Positions 4,116-21,257 of a stretch of DNA of 64,000 nt are shown piece by piece; the first letter of the stretch is position 1, and each line of letters begins with the position of its first letter. The stretch comes from Subtercola boreus. Its GTDB lineage: Bacteria > Actinomycetota > Actinomycetes > Actinomycetales > Microbacteriaceae. Both the position numbers and the translations under genes were made by a program. The stretch is taken from positions 2,046,001 to 2,110,000 of the forward strand of contig NZ_VFOO01000001.1 of assembly GCF_006716115.1 (NCBI RefSeq), given 5' to 3'. A model generated the notes under the pieces. The model did not search any database and was not told the DNA's origin. It worked only from the letters and a program-made list of their open reading frames with translations.

Positions 4116-5068
4116 TGAGAGAGTTTACCCGGTGGTGGGAGCTGCCGGGCGGGGTTCGCCTCACGGATCGCATCGGCTTCGGTGCGGAGGTGCTCTGCGA
4201 CGGTGCGGACGGCGAGGCGCTCGGCCCGGTCGGGGCGCATGAGGGCGTAGATGTGCCGCTCGGCGCGCATGCCGGAGAGGGGCTTCAGCGCGATGCGGTG
4301 CATGGTGTCGGAGGTCAGCGCGGTGTAGCGCGGCAGGATGGCGATGCCGAGGCCCGCCGACACCAGGGACTCCGTGACGCGGGTGTCGGCGAAACGCTGC
4401 ACGATGTTGACCGGGGCACCGGCCGCAGCCGAGATGTCGTACAGGGTGCGCTCGAAGGGGTACCCCCACGGCACCCCGATCCACTGCTCGCCGATCAGGT
4501 CGGCGGGGCTGACGCTGACTTCACCGGCGAGCGGATGCCCGGGGGGAAGTGCCACGTCGAGGGGTTCCGTCATCAGGTGCACGACGCTGAGGCCACGCCC
4601 GTACCAGAGCGAGGGCGGGCGGGTCGGCGCGTGGGCGACCACGATGTCGAAGTCGTTGGTCAGGTCGGGAAAGCCTTCGGAGACGGGATCGCGGTCGCTG
4701 GCGTGCAGCGTCAGGCCGGACTGCGCCGCGAGCCGGTGCAGCACTCCGGGCAGGAGCATCTGTCCACCGGTCGGGAAGGTCGCGAGCGACACCTCACCGG
4801 TCGGGTCGTGGCGGAACTCGTCCCAGAGCGCGTCGGCACGCTCGAGGGCGATGGCGACATCCGTGGCGCTCCGGGCGAGGGCGCGGCCGGCATCGGTGAG
4901 AACGATTCCGCGGCCGGCCTTCTCGGTGAGGGGAAGGCCGGCCTCGCGTTCGAGCACCCGCAGCTGCTGCGAGACGGCCGAGGGGGTGCGGTGGGTCGCC
5001 CGGGCGACCTCGGTGATGCTGCCCCGCTCCGCGAGCTCGCGGAGCAGTTCGAGCCGGCGTACGTCCAT
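4112..5068 (-). CDS. LysR-family transcriptional regulator
   Basis: A 318-aa LysR-type regulator. The N-terminal winged HTH (MDVRRLELLRELAERGS ... TPSAVSQQLRVLE) is followed by a substrate-binding domain from about residue 90. It lies on the same strand just after the aminotransferase that ends the catabolic block, separated by a tandem-repeat array, so it may regulate that block; this is inference from position. Its start has a TAGCGT element 6 bases upstream, indicating its own leaderless promoter, and its stop overlaps the DUF177 start by 4 bp. Confidence 0.88.
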   Translation of the reverse strand: MDVRRLELLRELAERGSITEVARATHRTPSAVSQQLRVLEREAGLPLTEKAGRGIVLTDAGRALARSATDVAIALERADALWDEFRHDPTGEVSLATFPTGGQMLLPGVLHRLAAQSGLTLHASDRDPVSEGFPDLTNDFDIVVAHAPTRPPSLWYGRGLSVVHLMTEPLDVALPPGHPLAGEVSVSPADLIGEQWIGVPWGYPFERTLYDISAAAGAPVNIVQRFADTRVTESLVSAGLGIAILPRYTALTSDTMHRIALKPLSGMRAERHIYALMRPDRAERLAVRTVAEHLRTEADAIREANPARQLPPPGKLSQ

Positions 5069-5074
5069 GAAGCA

Positions 5075-5080
5075 ACGCTA
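5075..5080 (-). promoter_or_regulatory. -10 element of the LysR gene (leaderless)
   Basis: On the minus strand TAGCGT is followed by 6 bases and the ATG at 5068. The same hexamer and spacing occur at other starts in the window. Confidence 0.5.
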
Positions 5081-5108
5081 CCGGGTCGGGCCCGGATGTG
5101 GTGGCAGG

Positions 5109-5193
5109 GCTGTCAGGCGAGCACCGCTGTCAGGCGAGCACTGCTGTCAGGCGAGCACCGCTGTCAGGCGAGCACCGCTGTCAGGCGAGCACC
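5109..5193. repeat. Five tandem copies of a 17-bp unit spanning a stop codon
   Basis: Unit GCTGTCAGGCGAGCACC occurs five times without gaps (one copy has a single C-to-T change). Read on the minus strand, the first unit encodes the last residues V-L-A and the TGA of the aminotransferase, and four further units follow as non-coding sequence before LysR. There are no spacers, so it is not a CRISPR array; replication slippage of the gene's 3' end is the simplest explanation. Confidence 0.95.
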
Positions 5194-6518
5194 GAGATCG
5201 ACGCGAAGGCCTCGTCGTAGATGGCGAGCGCCTGGGCGACCTCCGCGTCGGTCACCACGCAGGGCGGCACCACGTGCAGCCTGTTGTCGGCGAAGATCGG
5301 CAGGAGCCCGAGCGAGAGCAGCTTGGCCTTGAGCGCGCCGATCGTCGCCTGCGGGAGAGGTTCCCGTGTGGCAGGGTCGGCGACCAGGTCGAGCGCCCAG
5401 AAGACCCCGATCCCCCGCACCTCGCCGATGACATCGTGCTTCTCGGCCAGCGCGCGGAGCCCGGGGCCGAGCACGTCGCGGCCGATGCGTTCGGCGTTCG
5501 CGACGATCCCCTCGTCGGCCATCGCGTCGAGCGCGCCGACGATGGAGGCCATGGCCAGTGGATGCCCGGAGTAGGTCAGCCCGCCGGGGAACACGGTGTC
5601 CTCGAACGCCTCAGCGATGTACGGCGGGATGATGACTCCGCCCACCGGCACGTAACCCGAGTTGACCCCCTTCGCGAAGGTGATGAGGTCGGGAACGACC
5701 GTCTCACCCTCGACGTCGCCGAGCGCCTGGAAGGCGAACCAGCCGCCCGCCCGCCCGAACCCGCACATCACCTCGTCGAAGATCAGGATGATGCCGTACC
5801 TGTCGCAGAGCGCGCGGACGCCCGCGAGGTAGCCGGGCGGCGGCACGAGGATGCCCGCGGTGCCCGGAATCGTCTCGAGCACGATGGCGGCGATACCCGA
5901 AGCGCCTTCGGAGACGATCACCCGTTCGAGGTGGTGGAGGGCCCTTACCGACTCCTCCTCGGGGCTCGACGACCAGAATTCCGAGCGGTACGCGTAGGGA
6001 CCGAAGAAGTGGGCGTGGCCGCGGGCGTACTCGTTGGGCATCCGCCGCCAGTCACCCGTCGCGACGACCGCGGCTCCGGTGTTGCCGTGGTAGCTGCGGT
6101 AGGTCGAGAGGATCTTGTCGCGGCCGGTGTAGAGCCGGGCCATGCGGAAGGCGTTCTCGTTGGCATCCGCACCGCCGTTGGTGAAGAACACCTTGCTGAA
6201 GCCGTGGCCGGCCCGTTCGAGGATGCGCTGGGCGGCTCTGCCCCGCGCGAGATTCGCGGCCGCCGGTGCGATGGTGGTGAGCACCTCGGTCTGCGCCCGG
6301 ATCGCCGCGGTCACGGCCGGGTGCTGGTGCCCGATGTTCACGTTGATGAGCTGGCTCGAGAAGTCGAGGTAGCGGTTGCCGTCGAAGTCCCAGACGGTGC
6401 TGCCGAGTCCGCCGGCGATGACCATCGGCTTCAGGGCGCCCTGCGCCGACCAGGAGTGGAAGACGTGCGCGCGGTCGAGTTCGTAGGCGAGCGTGCCGTC
6501 TTCGGGGTTGAGATCCAT
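5181..6518 (-). CDS. Class-III PLP omega-aminotransferase (beta-alanine/omega-amino acid type)
   Basis: A PLP-dependent transaminase of class III, 445 aa from the ATG at 6518. That start (MDLNPEDG) is preferred over the ATG at 6557 because an AGAAGG ribosome site lies about 8 bases before it. Seen: the phosphate/cofactor motif GGADANENAFRMARLY, the Asp motif FDEVMCGFGRAG, and the Schiff-base lysine in TFAKGVNSGYVPVGG. Family knowledge: such enzymes convert beta-alanine, beta-aminoisobutyrate or other omega-amines with pyruvate. Next to dihydropyrimidinase and ureidopropionase genes it most likely removes the beta-amino acid produced by pyrimidine breakdown; substrate is inferred. Its 3' end is duplicated in the adjacent array. 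Confidence 0.88.
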   Translation of the reverse strand: MDLNPEDGTLAYELDRAHVFHSWSAQGALKPMVIAGGLGSTVWDFDGNRYLDFSSQLINVNIGHQHPAVTAAIRAQTEVLTTIAPAAANLARGRAAQRILERAGHGFSKVFFTNGGADANENAFRMARLYTGRDKILSTYRSYHGNTGAAVVATGDWRRMPNEYARGHAHFFGPYAYRSEFWSSSPEEESVRALHHLERVIVSEGASGIAAIVLETIPGTAGILVPPPGYLAGVRALCDRYGIILIFDEVMCGFGRAGGWFAFQALGDVEGETVVPDLITFAKGVNSGYVPVGGVIIPPYIAEAFEDTVFPGGLTYSGHPLAMASIVGALDAMADEGIVANAERIGRDVLGPGLRALAEKHDVIGEVRGIGVFWALDLVADPATREPLPQATIGALKAKLLSLGLLPIFADNRLHVVPPCVVTDAEVAQALAIYDEAFASISVLA

Positions 6519-6614
6519 GAGTGGTGCCTTCTTCGTGTCGGGTGGTGGGCCGGGCATCCGGTGCTCGCCGCTAATGACGGCGACGACGGATGCCCGGCCC
6601 AGGTAGATCGGGTT

Positions 6615-7769
6615 CTACTTGCCGCCCTCGGTGAGGGTGACGGTGAGGGGCTTGTAGGAGGTTCCGGTGACGTCGACTCCTTCGGCCTTCAGCGCATCGA
6701 GCGCCTTCTGCACGTAGGTGTTGGTGTAGGCGTCGGAGTCGGGCTCCTTGGTGATGACGGTCGTCCCTTCGAGATTCTTGGCCGTCATGGCCACATTGAC
6801 GGTCTGCTTCCACGATGCTTCGTCGACGATGCCGACGCCGGCAGCAGACGGCCAGATGAGCTTGTTGATCTCATTGGTCTGCCAGAGCTGGTGGCTTGCG
6901 CCGAGCTGCGAGCCCTTGGCCACGACGATGGCGGATGCCTTCTCGGGGTTGTCACGGGCATAGATCCAGCCTTTCAGGGCCGCCGTGAGGAACTTCACGG
7001 TCTGGTCCTGGTACGCCTGGTCGCTGTTCAGCTTCTCGGTGTTCGCCCAGATCGCGTCCTGGAGCATCGCGGTGCCCTCGGTGTTCCAGTCGATCACGTT
7101 GAGGTCGCTCGGCTGGTACAGCTTGCCGGTCGCCGGGTTCATGGTCTCGAGGATCTGCGCGTACTCGTTGTAGGTCTCGGCCTGCGCCGCGTCGATCGAC
7201 CCGTCGAGGAGACCCGACTCGTCGAACGCCTGCTGCACGAGCTTCACGTCTGTGGCGGGGTCGAGGCCCGCCTTCGTGATGCCGGCGAACATCTCGAACT
7301 CGTTGCCGTAGCCCCAGTTGCCGACGGTCTTGCCCTTGAGGTCGGCGGCCGTCGTGATGTTCTTGTCGGCCATCGACACCTGCAGGGTGCCGGACTTCTG
7401 CAGGATCTGGGCGACATCCGTGATGCCCGCGCCCTGCTCCCGTGAGGCGAGGGCCTTGGGAACCCAGGCGACCGCGTAGTCCACCGCGCCGTCGGCGAGC
7501 TGGGTCTGCGGAACGATGTCGGTTCCGCCCTCGACGATGGTGACGTCGAGGCCCTCGTCGGCGAAGTACCCCTGGTCGAGCGCTGCGTAGTAACCGGCGA
7601 ACTGCGCCTGCGTGAACCACTGCAGTTGCAGCTTCACGGGGGTCAGGGCGCCCCCGCTCGAGGTGGCGGTGTCGCCGGTGCTCGAGGAGCTCGAACATCC
7701 GCTCAGGATGAGGGCTGCCGACGCGGCGATGGCCGCCGCGCCGAGGGTGATGCGTCTGCTGTGCTTCAT
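6615..7769 (-). CDS. ABC importer substrate-binding lipoprotein, NMT1/SsuA-ThiY type
   Basis: A 384-aa lipoprotein: signal peptide with lipobox LSGC near residue 25, a Ser/Thr linker, then an NMT1/THI5-like binding domain (LQLQWFTQAQFAGYYAA ... GGTDIVPQTQLADGAVDYAV). A strong GGAGGAAAG ribosome site precedes the ATG. Relatives bind thiamine-precursor pyrimidines, sulfonates or nitrate. With two permeases, an ATPase and pyrimidine-type hydrolases in the same operon, an amidopyrimidine, pyrimidine or hydantoin ligand is the likeliest guess. Confidence 0.87.
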   Translation of the reverse strand: MKHSRRITLGAAAIAASAALILSGCSSSSSTGDTATSSGGALTPVKLQLQWFTQAQFAGYYAALDQGYFADEGLDVTIVEGGTDIVPQTQLADGAVDYAVAWVPKALASREQGAGITDVAQILQKSGTLQVSMADKNITTAADLKGKTVGNWGYGNEFEMFAGITKAGLDPATDVKLVQQAFDESGLLDGSIDAAQAETYNEYAQILETMNPATGKLYQPSDLNVIDWNTEGTAMLQDAIWANTEKLNSDQAYQDQTVKFLTAALKGWIYARDNPEKASAIVVAKGSQLGASHQLWQTNEINKLIWPSAAGVGIVDEASWKQTVNVAMTAKNLEGTTVITKEPDSDAYTNTYVQKALDALKAEGVDVTGTSYKPLTVTLTEGGK

Positions 7770-7865
7770 CTTTCCTCCGTTGATCTGTGTGCTGGACAGG
7801 TTGTGCTGGTGCGGTGGTGCTGGTGAAGGTCGTGCGGTGTGAAGGGTCGTGCGGGTGGAACGTTC

Positions 7866-8717
7866 TCAGGCCCGGCGGCGGCTCGCGAGCCGCTCGAGCA
7901 GCAGGGTGACGCCGTAGAAGACGAGCCCCAGGATGATCGCCCCGAACACGTACGCCCACGCCCGGGGGTAGGCGCTGTTCGCGGCGGCGGAGGTGATGCG
8001 GGAGCCGAGACCGTTCTGCAGGCCGCCGAAGTACTCGGCGACGATCGCGGAGATCACCCCGAGAGGCGCCGCGATACGGAGGCCGGTGAAGATGAAGGGC
8101 ACGGCGCCCGGCAGGGTGACGGTGCGCGTGAGCTGCCAGTTCGAGGCGGCGTACGCGCGCATCAGGTCGCGGTGCACCGGCCTGACCTGGCGGAGGCCGC
8201 GCAGGGTGTTGATGAAGATCGGCGCGAAGACGACGATCAGCACGACAATGCGCCGCGGGGTGTCGGAGGTCGATCCGAACATCGTGTTCAGGATGGGCGC
8301 GAGGGCGACGATGGGCACGACGGCCACGGCCGCGACGATCGGCACGATCATCCGGTCGAAGATCGTGACCCGGGAGGCGAGAAGGGCCAGCACGACGGCG
8401 AGGATGGCGCCGAGCACCAATCCGATCAGGGCGTTCAGGCCGGTCGCGAGGAGCGAGGACCAGAGCAGCGGGAAGACGATGAAGATCTGGCCGGCGATGT
8501 CGGTCGGGCTCGGCAGCAGGTAGGGCTTGATGTCGAAGGCGACCACGGCGAGCTGCCAGAGGAGGAGGAAGACCACGCCCAGCACGACCGGGGGAAGCAC
8601 CGAACGCGCCACCGAGCGGCGGGCCGCCCCTCGACCGGGGTTCGCACCGCCACCGGAGTTCGCAGCGGCGGCGGACGGAGCGGTCGCAATGGCGGCAGCG
8701 GCGACGGTGTCCGTCAT
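7866..8717 (-). CDS. ABC transporter permease (SsuC/ThiX type)
   Basis: A 283-aa inner-membrane subunit with about six helices and the EAA-type loop (RAYAASNWQLTRTVTLPGAVPFI) that contacts the ATPase. Its ATG overlaps the ATPase stop by 4 bp (ATGA). It is the second permease of the importer; two different permeases suggest a heterodimeric channel. Confidence 0.88.
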   Translation of the reverse strand: MTDTVAAAAIATAPSAAAANSGGGANPGRGAARRSVARSVLPPVVLGVVFLLLWQLAVVAFDIKPYLLPSPTDIAGQIFIVFPLLWSSLLATGLNALIGLVLGAILAVVLALLASRVTIFDRMIVPIVAAVAVVPIVALAPILNTMFGSTSDTPRRIVVLIVVFAPIFINTLRGLRQVRPVHRDLMRAYAASNWQLTRTVTLPGAVPFIFTGLRIAAPLGVISAIVAEYFGGLQNGLGSRITSAAANSAYPRAWAYVFGAIILGLVFYGVTLLLERLASRRRA

Positions 8718-9562
8718 CGGATGTCCGCCCCGAGAGGAGCGACGGGCGAGCCGTGGAGCGCCTCGCGCACGGCGGTCACGCCGGCGAAGAACGCCGGGTT
8801 CTCACGCAGGGAGTCGCTTCGCGAGGTACCCGGACCGAGATCCACCGACACGATGTCGACGATGCGACCCGGGCGGGGCGACATCACGACGACCCGGTCG
8901 GAGAGGAAGACGGCCTCGGGGATCGAGTGCGTCACGAAGACGACGGCCGCGCCCGTCTCGGAGCAGATGCGCACGAGCTCCTGCTGCATGCGCTCGCGGG
9001 TCATCTCGTCGAGGGCGCCGAACGGTTCGTCCATCAGCAGCAGTTTCGGCCGTTCGGCGAGCGAACGCGCGATGGCCACACGCTGCTGCATGCCGCCCGA
9101 GAGCTGGTCGGGGAAACGGCTCCGGAAGTCGGTGAGCCCGACGAGTTCGATCAGTTCCTCTGCCCGCGCCGCGCGTTCGGCCTTGCCCACGCCGTGCAGC
9201 TCGAGAGGCAGTTCGATGTTCGCCTGCACGGATCGCCACGGCAGAAGTCCCGCGCTCTGGAAGGCGATGCCGTATTCCTGGTCGAGCCGGGCCTGCCGCG
9301 CCGATTTGCCGAAGACGAGGATCTCGCCGCTCGTGGCGGAGTCGAGGTCGGCGATCAGGCGGAGGAGGGTGCTCTTGCCGCAGCCCGAGGGACCGATCAG
9401 CGACACGAACTCCCCCGGCTCGACGGTGAGGTCGATGCCGGTGAGCGCCTGCACTTCGGCGCCCTTCGCCACGGTGAAGATCTTGCCGGCCTGGCGCACA
9501 GAGATGGCCGGCAGAGCGGCGGCGTCCGGGGTGGTCGTGGTGGTGTGGGCAGTGTCGGTCAT
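8714..9562 (-). CDS. ABC transporter ATP-binding protein
   Basis: A 282-aa SsuB/ThiZ-like ATPase from the ATG at 9562. Walker A GPSGCGKST, signature LSGGMQQRVAIARSLA, Walker B LLLMDEPFGALDE and the H-loop VTHS are all visible. The reading frame stays open upstream, but the 4-bp ATGA overlap with the preceding permease and the normal start MTDTAHTT fix the start. It overlaps the next permease by 4 bp as well. Confidence 0.93.
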   Translation of the reverse strand: MTDTAHTTTTTPDAAALPAISVRQAGKIFTVAKGAEVQALTGIDLTVEPGEFVSLIGPSGCGKSTLLRLIADLDSATSGEILVFGKSARQARLDQEYGIAFQSAGLLPWRSVQANIELPLELHGVGKAERAARAEELIELVGLTDFRSRFPDQLSGGMQQRVAIARSLAERPKLLLMDEPFGALDEMTRERMQQELVRICSETGAAVVFVTHSIPEAVFLSDRVVVMSPRPGRIVDIVSVDLGPGTSRSDSLRENPAFFAGVTAVREALHGSPVAPLGADIR

Positions 9563-10458
9563 GAGGCCGCCTCCTGTCGGTTGAAACGCTTGAGGGTGAG
9601 GCCGATCAGCGCGACGATGCCCGCCGAGACGAGCCCGAGCACGACCGCACCGGCGATCGGTGCGTACGCCTTGGCCGGATCGGAGGTTCCGGACTGCGCG
9701 AACTCGATGATCATGCGCCCGATGCCGCCCTTGTAGCCGGTCGAGACCTCGGCCACCACCGTTCCCACGATGGCACTCGCGGCCCCCAGCCGGAGGGCCG
9801 GCAGGAGGTAGGGCACGCTTGCGGGCAGACGGAGCTTCAGGAGCGTGCGAAACCAGCCCGCGTTGTAGGTGCGCATCAGCTCGACGTGGATCGTGTCGGG
9901 CGACTGCAGCCCGCGGAGCGCGCCGACGGCCACCGGGAAGAACGCCAGGTATGAGGCGATGACGGCCACAGACATCCACCGGTCCCAGGAGAAGGCGCCG
10001 ATCTGGATCTTGCCGCCCCAGGCCACGATCACCGGGGCCAGGGCGATGAGCGGGACGGTCTGGCTGAGGATGAGCCAGGGCAGCACGGCCCGCTCAGCGA
10101 CCTGCAGGCGCTGCATGAGCAGGGCGATCAGGAAGCCGACGACGGATCCGATGGCCCAGCCGACCGCTGCGACGCCGAGGCTGGTCAGAGCCGCGCCGAT
10201 GACGGCCACCCAGACCGGCGGGGAGCCGGCGGCGGTGTTCACCGGCTCGATCGCCCGGGACAGCATGTCGACGAGGTGCGGCATCGAGCGGTCGTCGGTC
10301 TTCGGCAGGATGCTCGTGTCGAACAACACCACGCCGCCGGGCGGTCCCACCGCCTTGTAGCCCTCCCAGAGCAGCGCGAGCACGACGACTCCGAGCAGCC
10401 CCCAGAGCAGGGCGCTCCAGCGTCGGCGCGCCCGATCCGCTCCCGATGTCATCGTCAT
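9559..10458 (-). CDS. ABC transporter permease (SsuC/ThiX type)
   Basis: A 299-aa permease with an N-terminal helix (about 15-33), a periplasmic loop and the conserved EAA loop (MRTYNAGWFRTLLKLRLPAS). The start at 10458 overlaps the stop of the LLM oxidoreductase gene (ATGA at 10455-10458), so oxidoreductase and importer are translationally coupled. That links the enzyme and the imported compound. Confidence 0.88.
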   Translation of the reverse strand: MTMTSGADRARRRWSALLWGLLGVVVLALLWEGYKAVGPPGGVVLFDTSILPKTDDRSMPHLVDMLSRAIEPVNTAAGSPPVWVAVIGAALTSLGVAAVGWAIGSVVGFLIALLMQRLQVAERAVLPWLILSQTVPLIALAPVIVAWGGKIQIGAFSWDRWMSVAVIASYLAFFPVAVGALRGLQSPDTIHVELMRTYNAGWFRTLLKLRLPASVPYLLPALRLGAASAIVGTVVAEVSTGYKGGIGRMIIEFAQSGTSDPAKAYAPIAGAVVLGLVSAGIVALIGLTLKRFNRQEAAS

Positions 10459-11471
10459 GCGGTCGCCGTGATGTGCTCTCGCATCGCTGGGATGACGGCC
10501 TCGCCGTAGACACGCAGGGTCTCCTCCTTGTTGTCGTGCTGGAGGTAGCCGGCGAACTGGTCGACGCCGAGCTCCTTGAGAGCCTTCAGCTTCTCGATGT
10601 GCTGGTCGGCCGTGCCGAGCAGGCAGAAGCGGTCGACGATCTCGTCGGGAACGAAGTTCGCGTGCTCGTTGCCGGCGAGGCCGTGCTGGTTGTAGTCGTA
10701 GCCCTGGCGGGACTCGATGTAGTCCGTCAGCGCCTTCGGCACGTTCGAGTCGGTGCCGTACTTCGACACGATGTCGGCCACATGGTTGCCCACCATGCCA
10801 CCGAACCACCGGCACTGGTCGCGCATGTGCTCCCAGTCGTCGCCGATGTACATCGGGGCGGCCACGCAGAACTTGATCGACATCGGGTCGCGCCCTGCCT
10901 TCTCTGCCGCATCGCGGACGGTCTTGATCATCCATTCGGCGATGTCGACGTCGGCGAGCTGCAGGATGAAGCCGTCACCGACTTCGCCGGTGAGCTTGAG
11001 GGCGAGCGGGCCGTAGGCCGCAACCCACACCTCGAGTTCGGAACTGCGGCTCCACGGGAACTGCACGGTCGCCCCGTTGTACTCCACCGGGCGGCTGTTC
11101 GCGAGCTCACGGATCACGTGGATCGACTCCCGCAGGGTCTTCAGCGTGGTCGGTGCGCCGTTCGTCGTGCGCACCGCCGAGTCGCCACGGCCGATGCCGC
11201 AGATGGTGCGGTTGCCGTACATCTCGTTGAGGGTGGCGAAGATGGATGCCGTCACCGTCCAGTCGCGGGTCGCCGGGTTCGTCACCATCGGGCCGACCTT
11301 GATGCGGTGCGTCTCGTTGAGGATCTGGCTGTAGATGACGTACGGCTCCTGCCAGAGCAGGTGCGAGTCGAACGTCCACGCGTAGTCGAAGCCGTGCTGC
11401 TCGGCGAGCTTCGCGAGCGCGAGGGTGCGCGACGCCGGCGGGTGGGTCTGGAGTACTGCTCCGAATTCCAT
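10455..11471 (-). CDS. LLM-class (F420/flavin-dependent) oxidoreductase in the catabolic operon
   Basis: A 338-aa luciferase-like TIM-barrel protein. The start at 11471 (MEFGAVLQ) is supported by AGGAAG upstream. Visible features: GFDYAWTFDSHLLWQEPY near the N terminus, the NPATRDW and GIGRGDSAVRT segments typical of the F420-dependent branch related to Mer, and GDGFILQLAD. The family reduces or oxidises substrates with F420 or FMN. Encoded between dihydropyrimidinase and the importer and overlapping the importer start, it should act on the same compound. The exact reaction is unknown; no dihydropyrimidine dehydrogenase is encoded in this window, so a role in the reductive step is a hypothesis. 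Confidence 0.82.
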   Translation of the reverse strand: MEFGAVLQTHPPASRTLALAKLAEQHGFDYAWTFDSHLLWQEPYVIYSQILNETHRIKVGPMVTNPATRDWTVTASIFATLNEMYGNRTICGIGRGDSAVRTTNGAPTTLKTLRESIHVIRELANSRPVEYNGATVQFPWSRSSELEVWVAAYGPLALKLTGEVGDGFILQLADVDIAEWMIKTVRDAAEKAGRDPMSIKFCVAAPMYIGDDWEHMRDQCRWFGGMVGNHVADIVSKYGTDSNVPKALTDYIESRQGYDYNQHGLAGNEHANFVPDEIVDRFCLLGTADQHIEKLKALKELGVDQFAGYLQHDNKEETLRVYGEAVIPAMREHITATA

Positions 11472-11543
11472 GTGGTGCTGCTTCCTGCAAGGGGTGGTCG
11501 GGTTCATACGCGACGCCGGGCGGGGACCGGCGTCGCCAGTGGT

Positions 11544-12983
11544 TCAGATCAGATATTGGCTCAGGCCGCGCTTGAAGTACTTGCCGTCACCCTTGGTGCC
11601 GAGGTAGGAGTTGTCGTCGACGATGACCTTGCCGCGGGAGATGACGGTGTCGACGTGCCCGTCGATCTCGTAGCCCTCCCAGGCCGAGTAGTCCATGTTC
11701 ATGTGGTGCGAACGGCCCTCGCCGACGCCGATCGAGGTGTGCCCGTTCGGGTCGTAGATCACCACGTCGCCATCGGCCCCGGGCTGGATGACGCCCTTCT
11801 TGCCGTACATGCCGAACATGCGCGCGGGCGTGGTCGACGTGAGTTCGACCCAGCGCGGCAGGCTGATCTCGCCCATCACCACACCCTGGTAGATCAGGTC
11901 CATGCGGTGCTCGACCGAGCCGATGCCGTTCGGGATCTTCGAGAAGTCGCCGATCCCCATGTCTTTCTGACCCTTCATGCAGAAGGGACAGTGGTCGGTG
12001 GAGATGATCTGCAGGTCGTTCGTGCGGAGGCCCTGCCACATGTGGTGCTGGTGACCCTCCGCACGCGACCGGAGCGGCGTCGAGCACACCCACTTGGCGC
12101 CTTCGAAGTCGCCCCACTGCTCACTGGATGCCCCGAGCTGCTCCTCGAGCGACAGGTAGAGGTACTGCGGGCAGGTCTCTGCGAACACGTTCTGGCCGCG
12201 GTCGCGGGCGATGGCGATCTGCTCGACGGCCTGCTTGGCGCTGACATGGACGATGTAGAGCGGCGCACCCGTGAGGTTGGCGAGCATGATCGCGCGGTGG
12301 GTCGCCTCCTCCTCGGCCTGCCACGGGCGCGTGGTGCCGTGGAAGTACGGGGAGGTGTCACCCCGGGCGATGGACTGCTGCACGAGCAGGTCGATGACGC
12401 TGCCGTTCTCGGCGTGCATCATCATCAGCGCACCGTTCTCGCTCGCCCGCTGCATCGCCTTGACGATCTGCCCGTCGTCGGAGAGGAACACGCCCTTGTA
12501 GGCCATGAAGAGCTTGAAGGAGCTGACGCCTTCGTTCAGCAGCTCATCCATCGCCGTGAGCGACGAGTCCTGCACGTCGGAGAGGATCTGGTGGAAGCCG
12601 TAGTCGATGGCGCAGTTGCCCGCGGCCTTCTGGTGCCAGAGCTGGTACTGGTCGAGGATGTTCTCGCCCGCGTACTGCACCACGAAGTCGACGATCGAGG
12701 TCGTGCCGCCCCAGGCCGCTGCCCGGGTTCCCGTCTCGAAGGTGTCGCTCGCGAAGGTGCCGCCGAACGGCATCTCCATGTGCGTGTGCGCGTCGATGCC
12801 GCCCGGGATGACGTACTTCCCCCGCGCATCGATGACGCGGTCGACGTTGGCTGCGACATCGAAGCCGAGCAGGGCCGAGCCCGGGGCCAGCACGGCGGCG
12901 ATCGTCTCGCCGTCGATCAGCACGTCAGCGCTGGCGACGCCCGTGGCGTTCACCACAGTGCCGTTGGTAATGAGTGTCTTCAT
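11544..12983 (-). CDS. hydA: Dihydropyrimidinase / D-hydantoinase
   Basis: Cyclic amidohydrolase that opens dihydrouracil, dihydrothymine or 5-substituted hydantoins to N-carbamoyl amino acids. The 479-aa sequence has the metal ligands DAHTHMEMPFGG (about 62-73), the lysine to be carboxylated in SSFKLFMAYKG, HAENG, HVSAKQ and the final Asp in STDHCPFC. Length and motifs are normal for a functional enzyme. It lies 27 bp after the ureidopropionase gene and 72 bp before the LLM gene. Dihydropyrimidinase and hydantoinase activities cannot be separated by sequence alone. Confidence 0.93.
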   Translation of the reverse strand: MKTLITNGTVVNATGVASADVLIDGETIAAVLAPGSALLGFDVAANVDRVIDARGKYVIPGGIDAHTHMEMPFGGTFASDTFETGTRAAAWGGTTSIVDFVVQYAGENILDQYQLWHQKAAGNCAIDYGFHQILSDVQDSSLTAMDELLNEGVSSFKLFMAYKGVFLSDDGQIVKAMQRASENGALMMMHAENGSVIDLLVQQSIARGDTSPYFHGTTRPWQAEEEATHRAIMLANLTGAPLYIVHVSAKQAVEQIAIARDRGQNVFAETCPQYLYLSLEEQLGASSEQWGDFEGAKWVCSTPLRSRAEGHQHHMWQGLRTNDLQIISTDHCPFCMKGQKDMGIGDFSKIPNGIGSVEHRMDLIYQGVVMGEISLPRWVELTSTTPARMFGMYGKKGVIQPGADGDVVIYDPNGHTSIGVGEGRSHHMNMDYSAWEGYEIDGHVDTVISRGKVIVDDNSYLGTKGDGKYFKRGLSQYLI

Positions 12984-13010
12984 CGATTCGCCTCTCTCGT
13001 TCTGGTCGAC

Positions 13011-13859
13011 CTACGGCTTGGGGATCGAGGTGTACGACTCGGGCCTCCGGTCGCGGTAGAACTGCCAGTCGTCGCGCATCTCCCGCACCAGGTCGAGCTC
13101 GAGGTCGCGCACCAGGATCTCCTCAGAGGTACCGGATCCGCGATCCCCCACGAAGTTGCCACGCGGGTCGATCACCTGGCTGGTGCCGTAGAAGTCGACG
13201 GCGAGGTCGCCGTACTCGTTGTCTTCGCGGCCGACCCGGTTGGGCTGCAGCACGAAGTAGCCGTTCGCGACCGCTGCAGCAGGGCCCTCGACCTCCCAGA
13301 GCCGGTTCGACAGCCCGGGCTTCGTGGCGTTCGGGTTGAACACCATGTGCGCGCCGTTCAGGCCCAGCTCGCGCCAACCCTCGGGGAAGTGGCGGTCGTA
13401 GCAGATGTACAGGCCGATCTTGCCGACCGAGGTGTCGAAGACGGGGTAGCCCATGTTGCCGGGGCGGAAGTAGAACTTCTCGAAGAACCGGTCGACGTGC
13501 GGGATGTGGTGCTTCCGGTACTTGCCGAGGATCGTGCCGTCGGCTTCGACGATCACGGCGGTGTTGTAGTAGACGCCCGTGATGTCCTCTTCGTAGATCG
13601 GCAGGATGATCACGAGGTTCAGCTCTTTGGCGAGCGCGGCGAAGCGCTGCACGATGGGGCCGTCGGCCGGTTCGGCGTAGTGGTAGTACTTCTTGTCCTC
13701 GGTGATGCCGAAGTAGGGTCCGTAGAAGAGTTCCTGGAAGCAGATGACCTGGGCTCCCTCGGCCGCCGCGTCACGCGCGAACTGCTCGTGCTTCTGGATC
13801 ATGGACTCTTTGTCGCCGGTCCAGGTGGTCTGCGTGATCGCTGCCCGTACAACCGCCAT
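13011..13859 (-). CDS. Nitrilase-superfamily amidase, beta-ureidopropionase-like
   Basis: A 282-aa carbon-nitrogen hydrolase with the Glu-Lys-Cys triad in CFQELFYGPYFG, GKYRKHHIPH and YICYDRHFPEGWREL. FQELFYGPYF is close to eukaryotic-type beta-ureidopropionases, which hydrolyse N-carbamoyl-beta-alanine to beta-alanine, CO2 and ammonia, the step after dihydropyrimidinase. It is the first gene of the minus-strand operon, with AAAGGA 8 bases before the ATG and the divergent MocR-type regulator 103 bp away. Confidence 0.88.
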   Translation of the reverse strand: MAVVRAAITQTTWTGDKESMIQKHEQFARDAAAEGAQVICFQELFYGPYFGITEDKKYYHYAEPADGPIVQRFAALAKELNLVIILPIYEEDITGVYYNTAVIVEADGTILGKYRKHHIPHVDRFFEKFYFRPGNMGYPVFDTSVGKIGLYICYDRHFPEGWRELGLNGAHMVFNPNATKPGLSNRLWEVEGPAAAVANGYFVLQPNRVGREDNEYGDLAVDFYGTSQVIDPRGNFVGDRGSGTSEEILVRDLELDLVREMRDDWQFYRDRRPESYTSIPKP

Positions 13860-13962
13860 GGGTGATATTCCTTTCGAAGCCCGTTTTGTTATTATTCGAG
13901 CTGAACATTTCTCTTGTGTTTCAGACTGTGACGCAGGCGTAAAAATAAGTCAAGAGGTGTGG
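13860..13962. promoter_or_regulatory. AT-rich divergent promoter region between the catabolic operon and the MocR regulator
   Basis: This 103-bp gap is markedly more AT-rich than its surroundings. It contains AT runs usable as -10 elements in both directions and a small inverted pair, CTGAA (13901-13905) and TTCAG (13920-13924). Binding by the MocR protein is inferred from position; no operator is proven. Confidence 0.5.
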
Positions 13963-15333
13963 ATGATCGACCAGATCGTCGGGGCTGTGGAGAACAGGAC
14001 ACCCGAAGCCATCGCCGCCGCCGTGTCCCGGCTGATCCGGTCGGGAAGCATCGCCTCGGGCGACCGGCTGCCCACCGTGAGGGACCTCGCCCGCGCCCTC
14101 GGCGTCAGTCCCGCGACCGTCTCGAACGCCTGGCAGGCGCTCGCCGGGGTCGGCCTCATCACCTCCCGCGGACGTGCGGGCAGCTTCGTGCTGAAGGCCG
14201 GCACGACCTGGATGCCGACCCACTTCGCCGAACTCGCTGGCACCCACGTCGAAGCCCGACTCGACCTGTCCTCGGGAACGCCCGATCCGGCGCTCCTCCC
14301 CTCGCTCGGCGCGGCCCTCGCCCGCGTGCCGGCCCGCGCGGATACGTCGAGCTACCTCACCCAGCGTGTTCTCCCCGAACTCGAACGCCAGCTCCGGGCA
14401 TCCTGGCCCTACCGCGCGGAAAGCCTGACGATCCTCGACGGAGCACTCGACGCGATCTCCCGCTCGCTCGACGTCGTTGTGCGCTACGGCGACCGGGTGC
14501 TGGTCGAAGAACCGTCGTTCCCGCCGTTCTTCGACCTGCTCGAACAGTTCGGGGTCGAACGCGTGCCCGTGCAGATCGACGCGCATGGGATGAGACCGGA
14601 TGCCCTGGCCGCCGCCCTCAGCACGAACCCGGCCGCGATCATCCTGCAGCCGCGCGCCCACAACCCGACCGGCGCGTCGATGACCGCGGAGCGCGCCGAG
14701 GAACTGGTGCGGGTGCTGAGGGCGCACTCGCACCTGACCGACCCGGTCATCATCGAGGACGACCACTCGGCGGAGATCAGCTCCGCCCCGGCCCTCAGTC
14801 TCGGCTCCTGGCTGCCGCACCGGGTGCTGCACATCCGGAGCTACGCGAAGTCGCACGGGCCGGACCTCCGCATCGGAGCGCTCGCCGGCCCAGCGGCGCT
14901 GGTCGACCGTATCGTGGCGCGCCGGATGCTCGGGCCGGGGTGGACCTCGCGGATGCTGCAGGTCATCCTGTTCGAACTGCTCACCGCGCCGGAATCGGTG
15001 GCGCAGGTGCGGCTGGCGCGGAACACCTACCGGGAACGCCAGCAGGCGCTGGCCGCGGCCCTCGATCGACATGGACTCGAGGTGGCGAGCGCCGACGGCA
15101 TCAACCTCTGGTTGCCGGTACGGGACGAACGGTCGGCGATCGTGTCCCTCGCTGCGAGCGGGATCCGGGTTGCGGCGGGCACGTCCTTCCAGCCCGCGAA
15201 CGAACCGGGACCGGCACAGCGCCCGTTCGTGCGGGTGACAGCGGGACTGGTGCAGAACGACGTGCACGAGGTCGCGGCGCTGCTGGCAGCAGCCGCGCTC
15301 GGTGAGGGGCCGGCCGGGGCGCTCCGGGCCTGA
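13963..15333 (+). CDS. MocR-family regulator: GntR HTH fused to class-I aminotransferase domain
   Basis: A 456-aa PLP-dependent transcription factor. Residues 5-75 are a GntR winged HTH (GDRLPTVRDLARALGVSPAT); the rest is a fold-type-I aminotransferase domain with HNPTG and the PLP-lysine region IRSYAKSHGPDLRIG. AAGAGG lies 6 bases before the ATG at 13963. MocR proteins usually control adjacent genes for amines, GABA, taurine or vitamin B6. Divergent from the ureidopropionase gene, it is the best candidate regulator of the catabolic operon, perhaps sensing its amino product. Confidence 0.9.
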   Translation: MIDQIVGAVENRTPEAIAAAVSRLIRSGSIASGDRLPTVRDLARALGVSPATVSNAWQALAGVGLITSRGRAGSFVLKAGTTWMPTHFAELAGTHVEARLDLSSGTPDPALLPSLGAALARVPARADTSSYLTQRVLPELERQLRASWPYRAESLTILDGALDAISRSLDVVVRYGDRVLVEEPSFPPFFDLLEQFGVERVPVQIDAHGMRPDALAAALSTNPAAIILQPRAHNPTGASMTAERAEELVRVLRAHSHLTDPVIIEDDHSAEISSAPALSLGSWLPHRVLHIRSYAKSHGPDLRIGALAGPAALVDRIVARRMLGPGWTSRMLQVILFELLTAPESVAQVRLARNTYRERQQALAAALDRHGLEVASADGINLWLPVRDERSAIVSLAASGIRVAAGTSFQPANEPGPAQRPFVRVTAGLVQNDVHEVAALLAAAALGEGPAGALRA

Positions 15334-15380: not shown

Positions 15381-15398
15381 GGTGTCGGGAGCCCTCCC

Positions 15399-15404
15399 TA
15401 GACT
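15399..15404 (+). promoter_or_regulatory. -10 element (leaderless) of the second LLM gene
   Basis: TAGACT is followed by exactly 7 bases and then the ATG at 15412, which places the expected transcription start on the start codon. Confidence 0.55.
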
Positions 15405-15411
15405 GGAACGC

Positions 15412-16320
15412 ATGCGCTTCGGAATCGTCATCCTGCCCCAAGAGACCTGGGCCGAGGCCCGCCCGAAATGGCAGGCCGCCGAGCAGTTGGGCTTCGACCA
15501 TGCGTGGACGTACGACCACCTCTCCTGGCGGTCGCTGGCGGACGAGCCGTGGGGCGCGACGGTGCCGACACTGACGGCCGCCGCCACGGCCACCACGACC
15601 ATCCGGCTCGGCACCTTCGTCTCGTCGCCGAACTTCCGGCACCCCGTGCCGTTCGCGAAGGAGGTCGCCACGATCGACGACATCGCGGGCGGCCGGTTCC
15701 TGCTCGGCATCGGTTCGGGCGGCACCGGGTTCGACGCGTTCGTCCTCGGCCAGCAGCAGCTCACCCCGCGCCAGCGCCACGAACGGTTCGCCGAATTCGT
15801 CGAGCTGGCCGACCGTCTGCTGCGGTTCGAGCAGGCTCCGGATGTCGCGGCGGAGGCCGGGACATCCGGAATCAGCTTCGACGGCCGGTGGTACACCGCG
15901 CACGAGGCCCGGATGGTGGGTCGGCCCGCGCAGCAGCCGCGCGTTCCGTTCGTGCTCGCGGCCAACGGGCCGAAGGGTCTCGCGCTGGTCAGCCGGTTCG
16001 GGCAGGGCTGGGTCACGACCGGGGCAGACGGGGCTGTCGGCGAGGACTGGTGGGGCGCCGTCGAGACGCTGGTGCGCCGACTGGAGGATGCCGCGGCGGC
16101 AGACGGGCGGGACCCCGGCACGATCGACCGGTACCTGTCGCTCGACTCGGGCGGCCAGGCGTCACTTGCGAGCGTGGGGGCGTTCGAGGAGATGGTGGGG
16201 CGGGCATCCGGGCTCGGCTTCACCGACGTGATCACGCACTGGCCGAGGCGGTCGGGCATCTATGCCGCCTCGGAGGCGGTGCTGGAAGAGGTGGCAGCCC
16301 GGCTCGACGGGTGGCGCTGA
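15412..16320 (+). CDS. LLM-class F420/flavin-dependent oxidoreductase
   Basis: A 302-aa luciferase-like monooxygenase-fold protein. The start MRFGIVILPQ and the segment GFDHAWTYDHLSWR near residues 29-42 are typical, as are GTFVSSPNFRHP and the GGRFLLGIGSGG phosphate-binding loop. It reads as an F420- or FMN-dependent oxidoreductase of unknown substrate. It is only 77 bp upstream of cofD on the same strand, which favours F420 as cofactor. A leaderless promoter precedes it. Confidence 0.85.
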   Translation: MRFGIVILPQETWAEARPKWQAAEQLGFDHAWTYDHLSWRSLADEPWGATVPTLTAAATATTTIRLGTFVSSPNFRHPVPFAKEVATIDDIAGGRFLLGIGSGGTGFDAFVLGQQQLTPRQRHERFAEFVELADRLLRFEQAPDVAAEAGTSGISFDGRWYTAHEARMVGRPAQQPRVPFVLAANGPKGLALVSRFGQGWVTTGADGAVGEDWWGAVETLVRRLEDAAAADGRDPGTIDRYLSLDSGGQASLASVGAFEEMVGRASGLGFTDVITHWPRRSGIYAASEAVLEEVAARLDGWR

Positions 16321-16397
16321 GCGCCGACGGCACCCGATGCGGGTGGCGCTCAGGGCGGAGTGGCGTCGAACTCGCGGTCGAAGTGGGAAAATCAAGC

Positions 16398-17450
16398 GTG
16401 AAGATAACCGTGTTGGCTGGTGGCGTCGGTGGAGCGAAGTTCCTGCGGGGGCTGAGACAGCACCTGAGGGAGACCCTGCCCGACGGCCGGGGCGGCACGA
16501 CGGCCGTCGTCACCGTGGTCGTCAACACCGGCGACGACCTCTGGCTCACCGGGCTCCGGGTCTGCCCCGACCTCGACTCCATCATGTACACGCTCGGCGG
16601 GGCGAACGACGAGGTGCGCGGCTGGGGGCGACTCGGTGAATCCGAGCGGGTCAGCGCCGAGCTGACCGCCTACGGAGTGGGCTGGCCCTGGTTCACTCTC
16701 GGCGACCTCGACCTCGGCACACACATCACCCGCTCGCACCTGCTCCGCCAGGGGCTGACGCTCAGCGAGGCGACCGCCGAGATCACGGCACGTTGGAACC
16801 TCGGCGTCACGCTGCTGCCGATGAGCGACCAACCGGTCGAGACGCATGTGGTGGTGGCCGACGACGGTGCGGCCGGGGCTGGCGGGTCCGACACCCGCAC
16901 CGACACCCGCACCGGCACTCGCACCATGCACTTCGAGGAGTGGTGGGTGCACTACCGCGCCTCCCTCCCGGCACTGCGATTCGAACAGCACGGACTCGAA
17001 TCCGCAACAGCGGCGCCGGGTGTCGTGCAGGCCATCCTCGACGCCGACGTCGTGCTGGTCGCCCCGTCGAACCCCGTGGTCTCGATCGGCACGATCCTGC
17101 CGGTGCCAGGCATCCTCGAGGCCCTGCAGACAACCGCGGCGCCCGTCGTCGGGGTGTCTCCGATCATCTCGGGCTCGCCGGTGCGGGGCATGGCGAAGGC
17201 CTGCCTCGACGCCATCGGGGTGCCGGTCGCCGCCGACGCGGTGGGGCTGCACTACGGCTCCCGGTCGGGCGCGGGCGGCGGCTTCCTCGACGCCTGGTTG
17301 ATCGACGAGTCGGATGCCGCCCTGGCTTCCGGGATCGAGGCGGCGGGGATCCGGGTGAGTGTCGTACCGCTCTGGATGAGCACTGTCGAACTGGCGACGG
17401 CCCTCGCAGCCGACGCGCTGGCGGCGGCCCGGCCCGCCCTGGCGGTCTAG
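16398..17450 (+). CDS. cofD: 2-phospho-L-lactate transferase (CofD/FbiA)
   Basis: Transfers the phospho-lactyl or phosphoenolpyruvyl group from its GDP-activated form to Fo, making F420-0 or dehydro-F420-0. The GTG at 16398 gives the family start KITVLAGGVGGAKFLRG; further motifs are NTGDDLWLTGLRVCPDLDS, LGDLDLGTHI and APSNPVVSIG. At 350 aa it is slightly long because of a DTRT-DTRT-GTRT insertion coded by a 12-bp repeat (16890-16925). Its stop shares the CTAG at 17447-17450 with the convergent hydrolase gene. Confidence 0.93.
   Translation: MKITVLAGGVGGAKFLRGLRQHLRETLPDGRGGTTAVVTVVVNTGDDLWLTGLRVCPDLDSIMYTLGGANDEVRGWGRLGESERVSAELTAYGVGWPWFTLGDLDLGTHITRSHLLRQGLTLSEATAEITARWNLGVTLLPMSDQPVETHVVVADDGAAGAGGSDTRTDTRTGTRTMHFEEWWVHYRASLPALRFEQHGLESATAAPGVVQAILDADVVLVAPSNPVVSIGTILPVPGILEALQTTAAPVVGVSPIISGSPVRGMAKACLDAIGVPVAADAVGLHYGSRSGAGGGFLDAWLIDESDAALASGIEAAGIRVSVVPLWMSTVELATALAADALAAARPALAV
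16890..16925. repeat. 12-bp tandem repeat inside cofD
   Basis: Three units of GACACCCGCACC (the third is diverged) encode the insertion DTRT-DTRT-GTRT, placed between the Gly/Ala-rich stretch and MHFEEWWVHY. An in-frame, length-variable linker is implied. Confidence 0.9.
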
Positions 17451-19692: not shown

Positions 19693-20337
19693 TCAGCCGG
19701 CGTCCGCCGCGGTGGGTCCCTCCGCGCGCAATGCCCGCCGGGTGTGCTCTCCGGCGGTCGCATCGACGGACGAGAGGTCTGACGGCGTGTCCACGTCACG
19801 ACGGAGAGTCGAGGTGAGCGGCACCTCGAGCGGCACAAGGCCGGCCGCCGCGTGCGCCGCCGCCGATCCGATCCCGAACTGCGGAACCAACGAAACACCC
19901 GGCCGCGCGGTGATCGTGGTCGTGCCGACACCCTCGAAGTCGGCGACGAAGGCGGCTGGATGCTCGGCGGCGGCCCGCAACGCGCTGTCGACGTCTGCGG
20001 TGGTGAGCGAGGGGAGGTCGGCGGTGATCGCTGCGACCGGCGCTCCGGGGTGACGTCGTCGCGCCTCGGTGAGGCCGGTCGCAATGGCGACGTTCAGCCC
20101 CTCACCAGGATCCGCCAGAATGCGTGCGCCGAGCTCCGCGAGCGCAGCCGCCGACTCGGGGTCGCTCGTCACCACGATGATCTCCCCCACCAGCGCAGAG
20201 GCCGACAGAGCGCCGACGGCGTCCAGCGCGAAGGCGAGCGCCAGGCGCCGGCGCACCAGCACCGTCGCGGGCAGTTCCGCGAGCCGGGACTTCGACAGGT
20301 CCGTTCCCTTGACGGGAACGACGACGCTCCACTGCAT
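19693..20337 (-). CDS. cofC: 2-phospho-L-lactate (or PEP) guanylyltransferase, CofC/FbiD
   Basis: A 214-aa nucleotidyltransferase that activates 2-phospholactate or phosphoenolpyruvate with GTP for CofD. Family motifs are VPVKGTDLSKSRL at the N terminus, the VVTSDPE strand end and AITADLPSL. The start is either ATG at 20337 or GTG one codon earlier (GTGATG); with the ATG it overlaps the cofE stop by one base (TGATG). In actinobacteria the substrate is thought to be PEP. Confidence 0.92.
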   Translation of the reverse strand: MQWSVVVPVKGTDLSKSRLAELPATVLVRRRLALAFALDAVGALSASALVGEIIVVTSDPESAAALAELGARILADPGEGLNVAIATGLTEARRRHPGAPVAAITADLPSLTTADVDSALRAAAEHPAAFVADFEGVGTTTITARPGVSLVPQFGIGSAAAHAAAGLVPLEVPLTSTLRRDVDTPSDLSSVDATAGEHTRRALRAEGPTAADAG

Positions 20338-21257
20338 CACGGATGCACGGCCGGGCCGGCCACACCAGACGGATCGGCCCCACCAGAGTGACCACCCAGA
20401 CCGGCCCGGCGCCCGGCCTCGAACCCCTCGGCGTAGCCGGCAGCGCGCCCCTCGGCGAACCCTGCAGCCCGCCCCTCGGCGAGCGCTTCGTCGGTCCCGA
20501 GCCGGAACATGTCGGTCGGCCCGGTGCGGGTCAGCGCCCTCGCCGGCGTGTCGAGCGTCTCGACGACAAAGGCCGACAGCCCGCGCACCAATGCCACGGG
20601 CATCCCGCTCGCCTTGCCCTTCACCAGATCTGCGGCAGCCGTGATCTCGTCGGCGACCGCCATCTGAGTGACCTCGAGGGTCTGCCCGAAACTGTCGACG
20701 CCCCCACGCAGGTCATCGACGACCAGCACACCTGCTGAGCCGATGGCCGCATCGGTCTGGCCCTCCCGCCAGGCGCGCCCGAGAGTGTCGGACACGAGGA
20801 TGCCCACCCGCACTCCGAGCCGCTCGCGGAGTGCGGCGGCCAGCCGCCGGGCCGAGGCATCGGGGTCGACAGGCAGCAGCAGGACGGTGCCGGCGGGGGT
20901 GTTGCTCGCGTCCACCCCGGCCGCGGCCTGCACGATGCCCAGACGGTTCTCGACGATGCGGGTCACACCCCCGGGGTGCGTGCGGGTGGCGACCACGCGC
21001 ACGGTCTCGGCGGTGATCGCGTCTTCCCGGTCATCCGCCCGCACCGAACGCCCCTCGGCCTTCGAGACGATCTTGCTCGTCACGACGAGGATGTCGCCGT
21101 CTTCGACGTCGAGCCCCTGCCCCGCCAGAGCGTCGGCAATGAGCTCGTCGAGCGAATCTCCCGCCACGACCTCGCCCATGCCCGCGACGGCATACACCTG
21201 GATCATCGTCATGCCGGCGGTCGGCAGCTCAGGAACCGGCATGGCAGGACCCTGCAT
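20337..21257 (-). CDS. cofE: F420-0:L-glutamate ligase (CofE/FbiB N-terminal domain only)
   Basis: A 306-aa F420 gamma-glutamyl ligase. Motifs [26 protein letters not shown] and [18 protein letters not shown] are intact. Actinobacterial FbiB normally carries an additional C-terminal nitroreductase domain (about 450 aa in total); here it is absent and replaced by a tail of 8-residue EGRAAGFA-like repeats. Later in-frame ATGs (MTMIQVYAV) may be the true start. The gene follows coaD by 18 bp and is coupled to cofC. Confidence 0.92.
20403..20483. repeat. 24-bp tandem repeat coding the CofE tail
   Basis: Units at 20427-20450 and 20451-20474, plus flanking degenerate copies, encode [24 protein letters not shown] on the minus strand. 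Confidence 0.85.

Follow-up and report, generated by a model that had tools for sequence, protein, structure and literature searches.

An actinobacterial pyrimidine operon in which a TIGR03842-family oxidoreductase probably takes the place of dihydropyrimidine dehydrogenase

We analyzed a window of 64,000 nucleotides from the genome of Subtercola boreus (contig NZ_VFOO01000001.1, positions 2,046,001 to 2,110,000 of the forward strand), which carries on its minus strand, at window positions 5181-13859, an operon of eight genes: those of a class-III aminotransferase, an NMT1-type binding protein, a permease, an ATPase, a second permease, a luciferase-like monooxygenase (LLM) superfamily oxidoreductase, a dihydropyrimidinase, and a CN-hydrolase. 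The genome measures 4.21 Mb and is 99.8% complete, and the closest named loci among the matches listed belong to Microbacteriaceae. An original prediction, made from the sequence of the window, had named these genes and had counted 5181-15333 as one operon, in which the LLM enzyme would reduce the pyrimidine ring or perform a related redox step, perhaps with F420, no dihydropyrimidine dehydrogenase being in sight. Pfam and NCBIfam matches placed all of the named genes on the minus strand within 5181-13859, which can stand as an operon, while the remaining part (13963-15333) is a divergent gene for a MocR-type regulator and lies outside it. As set out below, we consider it quite probable, judging from sequence data, that the operon encodes a reductive pyrimidine degradation pathway with the LLM enzyme in place of dihydropyrimidine dehydrogenase.

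The LLM gene (10455-11471, with an alternative start at 11507; PF00296 and TIGR03842) is proposed to encode an F420H2-dependent uracil/thymine (dihydropyrimidine) reductase. Its neighbor on one side is the gene of the dihydropyrimidinase (step 2; 11544-12983; TIGR02033, 541 bits against a cut-off of 393), whose top match among solved structures was a dihydropyrimidinase (3sfw, 468 bits), closely followed by D-hydantoinases. Next to this lies the CN-hydrolase gene (13011-13859; PF00795), probably encoding the β-ureidopropionase of step 3; the solved relatives of its product include both β-ureidopropionases and N-carbamoylputrescine amidohydrolase, and its match to TIGR03381 reached 239 bits, under the cut-off of 410. 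On the other side follow the parts of an ATP-binding cassette (ABC) importer: a permease (9559-10458; PF00528), an ATPase (8714-9562, with an ATG start at 9562; PF00005), a second permease (7866-8717; PF00528), and the NMT1-type substrate-binding protein (6615-7769; PF09084, 126 bits), whose solved relatives include the pyrimidine-binding protein 3ix1 (60 bits). The class-III aminotransferase (5181-6557; PF00202; PRK06062, 706 bits against a cut-off of 472) is a probable β-alanine aminotransferase for step 4, with taurine:2-oxoglutarate aminotransferase as its top solved match (341 bits). The enzyme genes are separated by 27 bp and by either 36 or 72 bp, depending on the LLM start, and the LLM stop overlaps the start of the importer permease by 4 bp (ATGA), an overlap that the original prediction had also described.

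No gene for the usual first enzyme of such a pathway was found. A tblastn search with Escherichia coli PreA, at E values up to 1e-10, gave no match in the window or in 212 other loci, in line with the earlier claim that the window lacks a dihydropyrimidine dehydrogenase. A dihydropyrimidine dehydrogenase hidden elsewhere in the genome was likewise sought and ruled out, since the only DHO_dh protein of the genome is the quinone-dependent PyrD and no PreA match exceeded the cut-off. The same held on a larger scale, where matches over cut-off were counted in a class set of 296 Actinomycetes genomes and a phylum set of 158 genomes: PreA was found in 0 of 296 and in 0 of 158, respectively, with 2 of the 14 control genomes positive in each case. 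The LLM enzyme is itself no member of the PydA/PreA family, as neither DHO_dh (PF01180) nor an Fe-S domain was matched and PF00296 was its only Pfam match. A RutA-type pathway was rejected for this genome as well, from the best RutA match (382 bits, under the cut-off of 498) and from the few neighbors of the two RutA-like genes that were scanned.

The LLM enzyme matched TIGR03842 over the whole model (positions 1-329 of 329) with 593.4 bits, against a cut-off of 295.45. This family (F420_CPS_4043), listed in NCBIfam as a hypothetical equivalog with no assigned reaction, was reportedly first tied to F420 by Selengut and Haft in 2010 through phylogenetic profiling. When a sequence profile built from 13 TIGR03842 members was compared with solved structures, six entries of the F420-dependent enzyme Mer came first (109-151 bits), followed by other F420 enzymes with four entries (62-74 bits, the alcohol dehydrogenase at 68 bits), so that the 10 best Protein Data Bank matches were all F420-dependent enzymes; a Thermomicrobium F420 enzyme (56 bits) and flavin mononucleotide (FMN) luciferases (51 bits and less) ranked further down. 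A predicted structure of the LLM enzyme (mean predicted local distance difference test score 83, predicted template modeling score 0.86, with low confidence around residues 221-270) gave a similar picture in a fold search, where ranks 1 to 9 were taken by Mer and F420-dependent alcohol dehydrogenase. Both in sequence and in fold, the LLM enzyme is thus nearest to the F420-dependent members of the LLM hydride transferases. Motifs around RWF..(M/L)V.NHV and YDY..H were kept, with small changes, in 13 of 14 sequences from two phyla, the exception being a divergent Variovorax protein (203 bits, under the TIGR03842 cut-off of 295).

These matches bear on an alternative in which the LLM enzyme would use reduced FMN and oxygen, as RutA does, to open or oxygenate the pyrimidine ring. 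FMN monooxygenases do belong to the LLM superfamily, with SfnG appearing from rank 10 and luciferase lower among the structural matches, and RutA-like proteins under the cut-off are encoded elsewhere in this genome. RutA, however, was absent from the 25 families that the LLM enzyme matched at E values up to 0.001, its best sequence and structure matches are F420 enzymes, and its family travels with F420 synthesis; moreover, each of the two RutA-like genes of the genome sits near an NtaA/DmoA-type monooxygenase gene (few neighbors were scanned). The product of RutA would need no dihydropyrimidinase, which also counts against this alternative. We regard it as extremely doubtful.

The distribution of TIGR03842 across genomes follows that of dihydropyrimidinase. 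In the class set, TIGR03842 was found in 89 of 296 genomes and dihydropyrimidinase in 93, with 87 genomes having both, a pairing that spans 14 of the 15 families with TIGR03842 and yields a Fisher p of 8e-65 when kinship is ignored. In one of the families (f10), a single genome (G243) was the only one with TIGR03842 over the cut-off. Within the family of the window itself, 10 of 14 genomes had both TIGR03842 and dihydropyrimidinase and 4 had neither; three of these four also had no CofD. CofD exceeded its cut-off in 87 of the 89 TIGR03842 genomes versus 157 of the 207 others (Fisher p = 6e-7, again with kinship ignored).

Gene order tells the same story. We fetched class loci around the TIGR03842 genes of 88 other carriers, together with 80 loci of close relatives (the best 80 of at least 594 genome-contig matches). 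A dihydropyrimidinase gene lay on the same strand as TIGR03842 within 500 bp in 59 of the 88 class loci and within 2.5 kb in 84, and an amidase gene, also on that strand, lay no more than 5 kb away in 82. The four exceptions for dihydropyrimidinase comprised one locus (L063) where it sits ~34 kb away in its genome, one (L099) on a 7.3-kb contig with the gene on another contig of its genome, and two (L107 and L136) that come from the two genomes with no dihydropyrimidinase over the cut-off. Among the close relatives, dihydropyrimidinase was found within 500 bp in 80 of 80 loci and the amidase in 78. Other neighbors recurred, with each cluster named from a single representative: of 169 loci, 54 had a CoA-acylating methylmalonate-semialdehyde dehydrogenase, 28 an NCS1 nucleobase permease, and 25 and 20 components of a putative F420-0 ABC importer. 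The importer genes of the last two clusters (TIGR03868 and TIGR03869 over the cut-off) lie at 4926-5984 of locus L147 and 2-1039 of locus L070, both of which have the amidase-dihydropyrimidinase-LLM operon.

The recurrent semialdehyde dehydrogenase helps to weigh a second alternative, namely that the LLM enzyme depends on F420 but acts at another step, on an aldehyde or alcohol of the β-alanine branch such as malonate semialdehyde, in the manner of F420-dependent alcohol dehydrogenase. That enzyme is likewise an LLM protein and appears at rank 9 of the structural matches (1rhc), and the operon of the window showed no gene for a semialdehyde dehydrogenase. The LLM gene and a gene of the CoA-acylating semialdehyde dehydrogenase cluster nonetheless stood together in the 54 of 169 loci mentioned above; in these, the semialdehyde step is therefore served, and it is the first step that would be left empty. 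The TIGR03842 profile, too, fits Mer better than it fits the alcohol dehydrogenase. We judge an action at this later step to be very unlikely.

Beyond the class Actinomycetes, TIGR03842 exceeded its cut-off in 31 of the 158 phylum genomes. We collected 27 loci from 26 genomes outside the class (a partial second match in genome G410 was left out), and 19 of the 27 contained a dihydropyrimidinase; a Zn-hydrolase replaced the CN-hydrolase in 9 of those 19. Across these outside-class loci, including the eight described further below, downstream and transport genes (β-ureidopropionase and transporter types) are exchanged while the LLM gene stays. The arrangement thus appears, from gene content, to recur in other actinobacterial classes, and the plasmids described below suggest the same for some marine proteobacteria.

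We next consider the supply of F420. As the original prediction had pointed out, three genes of F420 synthesis lie close by, about 1.1-5.9 kb past position 15333: cofD (about 16392-17390, plus strand; TIGR01819, 310 bits against a cut-off of 257), cofC (19693-20340, minus strand; PF01983, 35 bits against 22), and cofE (20337-21257, minus strand; TIGR01916, 224 bits against 181). A second LLM protein is encoded at 15382-16320 on the plus strand, ~70 bp ahead of cofD, and resembles TIGR03560 and TIGR03619, under both cut-offs. By gene content, the host can both synthesize and reduce F420, having cofC, cofD, cofE, an FbiC-like gene, and FGD. The last of these exceeded its cut-off (454 bits against 420) and could be the source of F420H2 in this genome, where a search for npdG gave none over the cut-off. 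F420 has a potential below that of NADPH, which suits pyrimidine reduction. Overall, cof genes were found within 45 of 168 loci, of which 42 were among the 80 close-relative loci and 3 among the 88 class loci.

Plasmids of proteobacteria, on whose records the proteobacterial PreA and TIGR03842 evidence rests, provided a further view of the association with F420. Sixteen plasmid records matched the LLM enzyme at E values up to 1e-30, including ten from Leisingera and one from Paracoccus. In the two Leisingera plasmids that we examined, TIGR03842 ends a run of cofG-cofH-cofD-cofC-cofE-npdG, and divergent from this F420 run lie genes for an NCS1 symporter, dihydropyrimidinase, Zn-hydrolase, aminotransferase, and transhydrogenase. 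This F420 operon is also present on the Paracoccus plasmid, where an ABC importer comes after it. PreA had no match on the two Leisingera records and the Paracoccus record, in a search that found both positive controls. Conversely, 62 plasmid records had PreA, and among the 30 that were listed none came from Leisingera or Paracoccus. On one plasmid each of Azospirillum and Burkholderia, PreA is clustered with a Zn-hydrolase and a dihydropyrimidinase, and the gene before it encodes an NAD(P)-dependent oxidoreductase that is presumably PreT; the Burkholderia cluster also holds an NCS1 permease, thymidine phosphorylase, and cytidine deaminase. Two further plasmids carried LLM genes in other settings. 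In Variovorax sp. PBL-E5 (L225, 3414-12909), the divergent LLM gene lies beside genes for a CN-hydrolase, an amidohydrolase, NpdG, and RidA and beside cofG-cofH-cofD-cofC, a set that may represent a related F420 pathway acting on a different ring. In Natrinema (L227, 4254-9002), hydantoinase A/B (oxoprolinase) genes are followed by an LLM gene that overlaps them by 4 bp.

The proteobacterial clusters also speak to a third alternative, in which the operon would handle hydantoins or dihydropyrimidines from the environment and the LLM enzyme would reduce some other unsaturated ring. There is overlap between the dihydropyrimidinase family and D-hydantoinase, the binding protein of the importer shows no more than distant kinship to a known pyrimidine binder, and LLM proteins of Chloroflexota have been proposed as yanthine reducers (PMC12507026). 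Set against this, in other taxa NCS1 nucleobase symporters adjoin the operon, and in Burkholderia the corresponding PreA cluster also contains thymidine phosphorylase and cytidine deaminase. We consider a hydantoin or other-ring operon very unlikely.

Taken together, we propose that the operon works as follows. The NMT1-type ABC importer would bring in a pyrimidine as its putative cargo. The LLM enzyme would then reduce uracil or thymine at the C5-C6 double bond by hydride transfer from F420H2, yielding the dihydropyrimidine; we infer the substrate, direction, and cofactor of this step from the gene content, profiles, linkage, and kinship that were observed. By family assignment, the dihydropyrimidinase would open the ring, the CN-hydrolase would release CO2, NH3, and β-alanine or its methyl homolog, and the class-III aminotransferase would remove the amino group. 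A CoA-acylating (methyl)malonate-semialdehyde dehydrogenase, adjacent in other loci, would complete the pathway. The LLM enzyme, though outside the PydA family, very likely works like PydA, i.e., as a non-homologous replacement in an otherwise known pathway. The phylogenetic profile, the gene order, and the closeness to Mer support the earlier suggestion of ring reduction by the LLM enzyme with F420, as do the linkage to F420 synthesis in Micrococcales and Alphaproteobacteria and the presence of PreA in the corresponding proteobacterial clusters. That suggestion is, on this sequence evidence, very probably right.

Several observations weigh against this interpretation. The profile counts carry no correction for kinship. 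Two TIGR03842 genomes (G025 and G208) have no dihydropyrimidinase over the cut-off, and two others, both fragmented (G133 and G182, the latter placed under the CofD cut-off from its E-value, in agreement with the tally), have no CofD over the cut-off. Six genomes (G009, G014, G027, G058, G140, and G276) have a dihydropyrimidinase but neither TIGR03842 nor PreA over the cut-off. The genome's FbiC-like gene is under the CofH cut-off (322.6 versus 374.1), the cof linkage inside loci occurs mainly among close relatives, and the use of F420 by the LLM enzyme rests on kinship and linkage, while the sequence matches of the dihydropyrimidinase do not separate it from D-hydantoinase. The Paracoccus plasmid stretch has no dihydropyrimidinase, and the PreA negative for Leisingera and Paracoccus covers plasmid records, not chromosomes. 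Outside the class, 8 of the 27 loci contain no dihydropyrimidinase: three have a Zn-hydrolase, an aminotransferase, and an NCS1 permease, one has an amidase and an importer, one an importer only, one a semialdehyde dehydrogenase, and two nothing that we recognized. Finally, the mutual exclusion of PreA and TIGR03842 is not absolute, since in Caballeronia sp. SBC2 one replicon carries PreA together with dihydropyrimidinase and another carries part of a TIGR03842 sequence. The partial stretch (plasmid L267, 8001-8384) covers 38% of the query, mostly without an annotated gene, and lies by a Zn-hydrolase gene. As a partial gene beside an intact PreA pathway, it has no bearing on the main profile, and the same holds for the limitation of the Leisingera and Paracoccus searches to plasmids.

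Two side observations belong to these exceptions. Among the six genomes, G009, G014, and G140 have strong dihydropyrimidinases (512-583 bits). The Caballeronia stretch also adjoins a transhydrogenase gene near IS66 genes and resembles a degraded remnant of the F420 module.

The divergent gene beyond the operon (13963-15333, plus strand; PF00392 and PF00155) encodes a MocR-type protein with a GntR domain and an aminotransferase fold, probably the regulator of the operon, responding to a putative signal. Its match to a PtsJ-like model reached 270 bits, under the cut-off of 573. A homolog was divergent from the amidase gene and within 600 bp of it in all 60 other loci where both were found. By position, the intergenic region between operon and regulator (13860-13962) presumably holds a divergent promoter; a search there for inverted or direct repeats of at least 8 bases, at a seed of 6, found none.

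If the proposal is true, a non-homologous F420H2 enzyme fills the missing first step of pyrimidine degradation in Actinomycetota, and TIGR03842, an F420 family with no assigned reaction, gains one. Bacteria that use uracil as nitrogen source for growth should then require F420. On balance, though with more reservation, we favor the broader view that the reductive pathway has a third, widespread form based on uracil reduction with F420H2, which is the standard one in Actinomycetota, and that some Alphaproteobacteria carry the complete F420 pathway (synthesis, reduction by NpdG, and the LLM enzyme) on plasmids within a uracil-degradation module, so that nucleobase catabolism would be one reason for proteobacteria to make F420. 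Why they do so is described as an open question in PMC8498797, which reports trace F420 in Paracoccus denitrificans; the question would become directly testable. In the portions of the literature open to our search, with preprints and most subscription papers outside its scope, we found no F420 enzyme assigned to uracil degradation and no mention of TIGR03842. For Mycobacterium smegmatis, a reductive uracil pathway has been described with some genes still to be identified (PMC4617892).

The proposed system can be compared with several known ones. The dihydropyrimidine dehydrogenases covered by PMC7332683, among them a ferredoxin-dependent PydA, all represent versions of a single flavin/Fe-S enzyme whose donor is NAD(P)H or ferredoxin. 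The Pyd pathway (PydA or PreT-PreA) is alike in its downstream steps and in its cluster, with dihydropyrimidinase, β-ureidopropionase, a transporter, and sometimes an aminotransferase, whereas the first enzyme here is an unrelated LLM protein with no DHO_dh domain, for which F420H2 rather than NAD(P)H or ferredoxin is the proposed donor. The LLM enzyme is a member of TIGR03842, whose family model comes without a reaction; here we put one forward. Mer, placed in the reductase group of F420 enzymes in PMC6279831, provides the closest solved relatives and shares the common LLM fold, but the identity is 24-28% in structural alignments and the substrate must differ. A region of about residues 217-270, with the conserved RWF, NHV, and YDY motifs, lies outside the profile match to the best Mer entries. 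In the biosynthesis of mureidomycin and napsamycin, the putative F420/FMN oxidoreductase SSGG-03002/NpsU was shown by genetics and nuclear magnetic resonance to carry out reduction of the uracil C5-C6 bond in mureidomycins, and its in vitro assay failed (PMC10714638). This enzyme is biosynthetic and acts on a uridyl peptide, and it is likened to the TIGR03842 protein by reaction. The uric acid clusters of Chloroflexota encode a putative F420-dependent yanthine reductase, offered as a proposal only (PMC12507026). The idea is the same, with an LLM protein replacing the PydA-like reductase of a uracil-type ring; the Chloroflexota enzyme belongs to a purine pathway in a cluster different from the operon described here.

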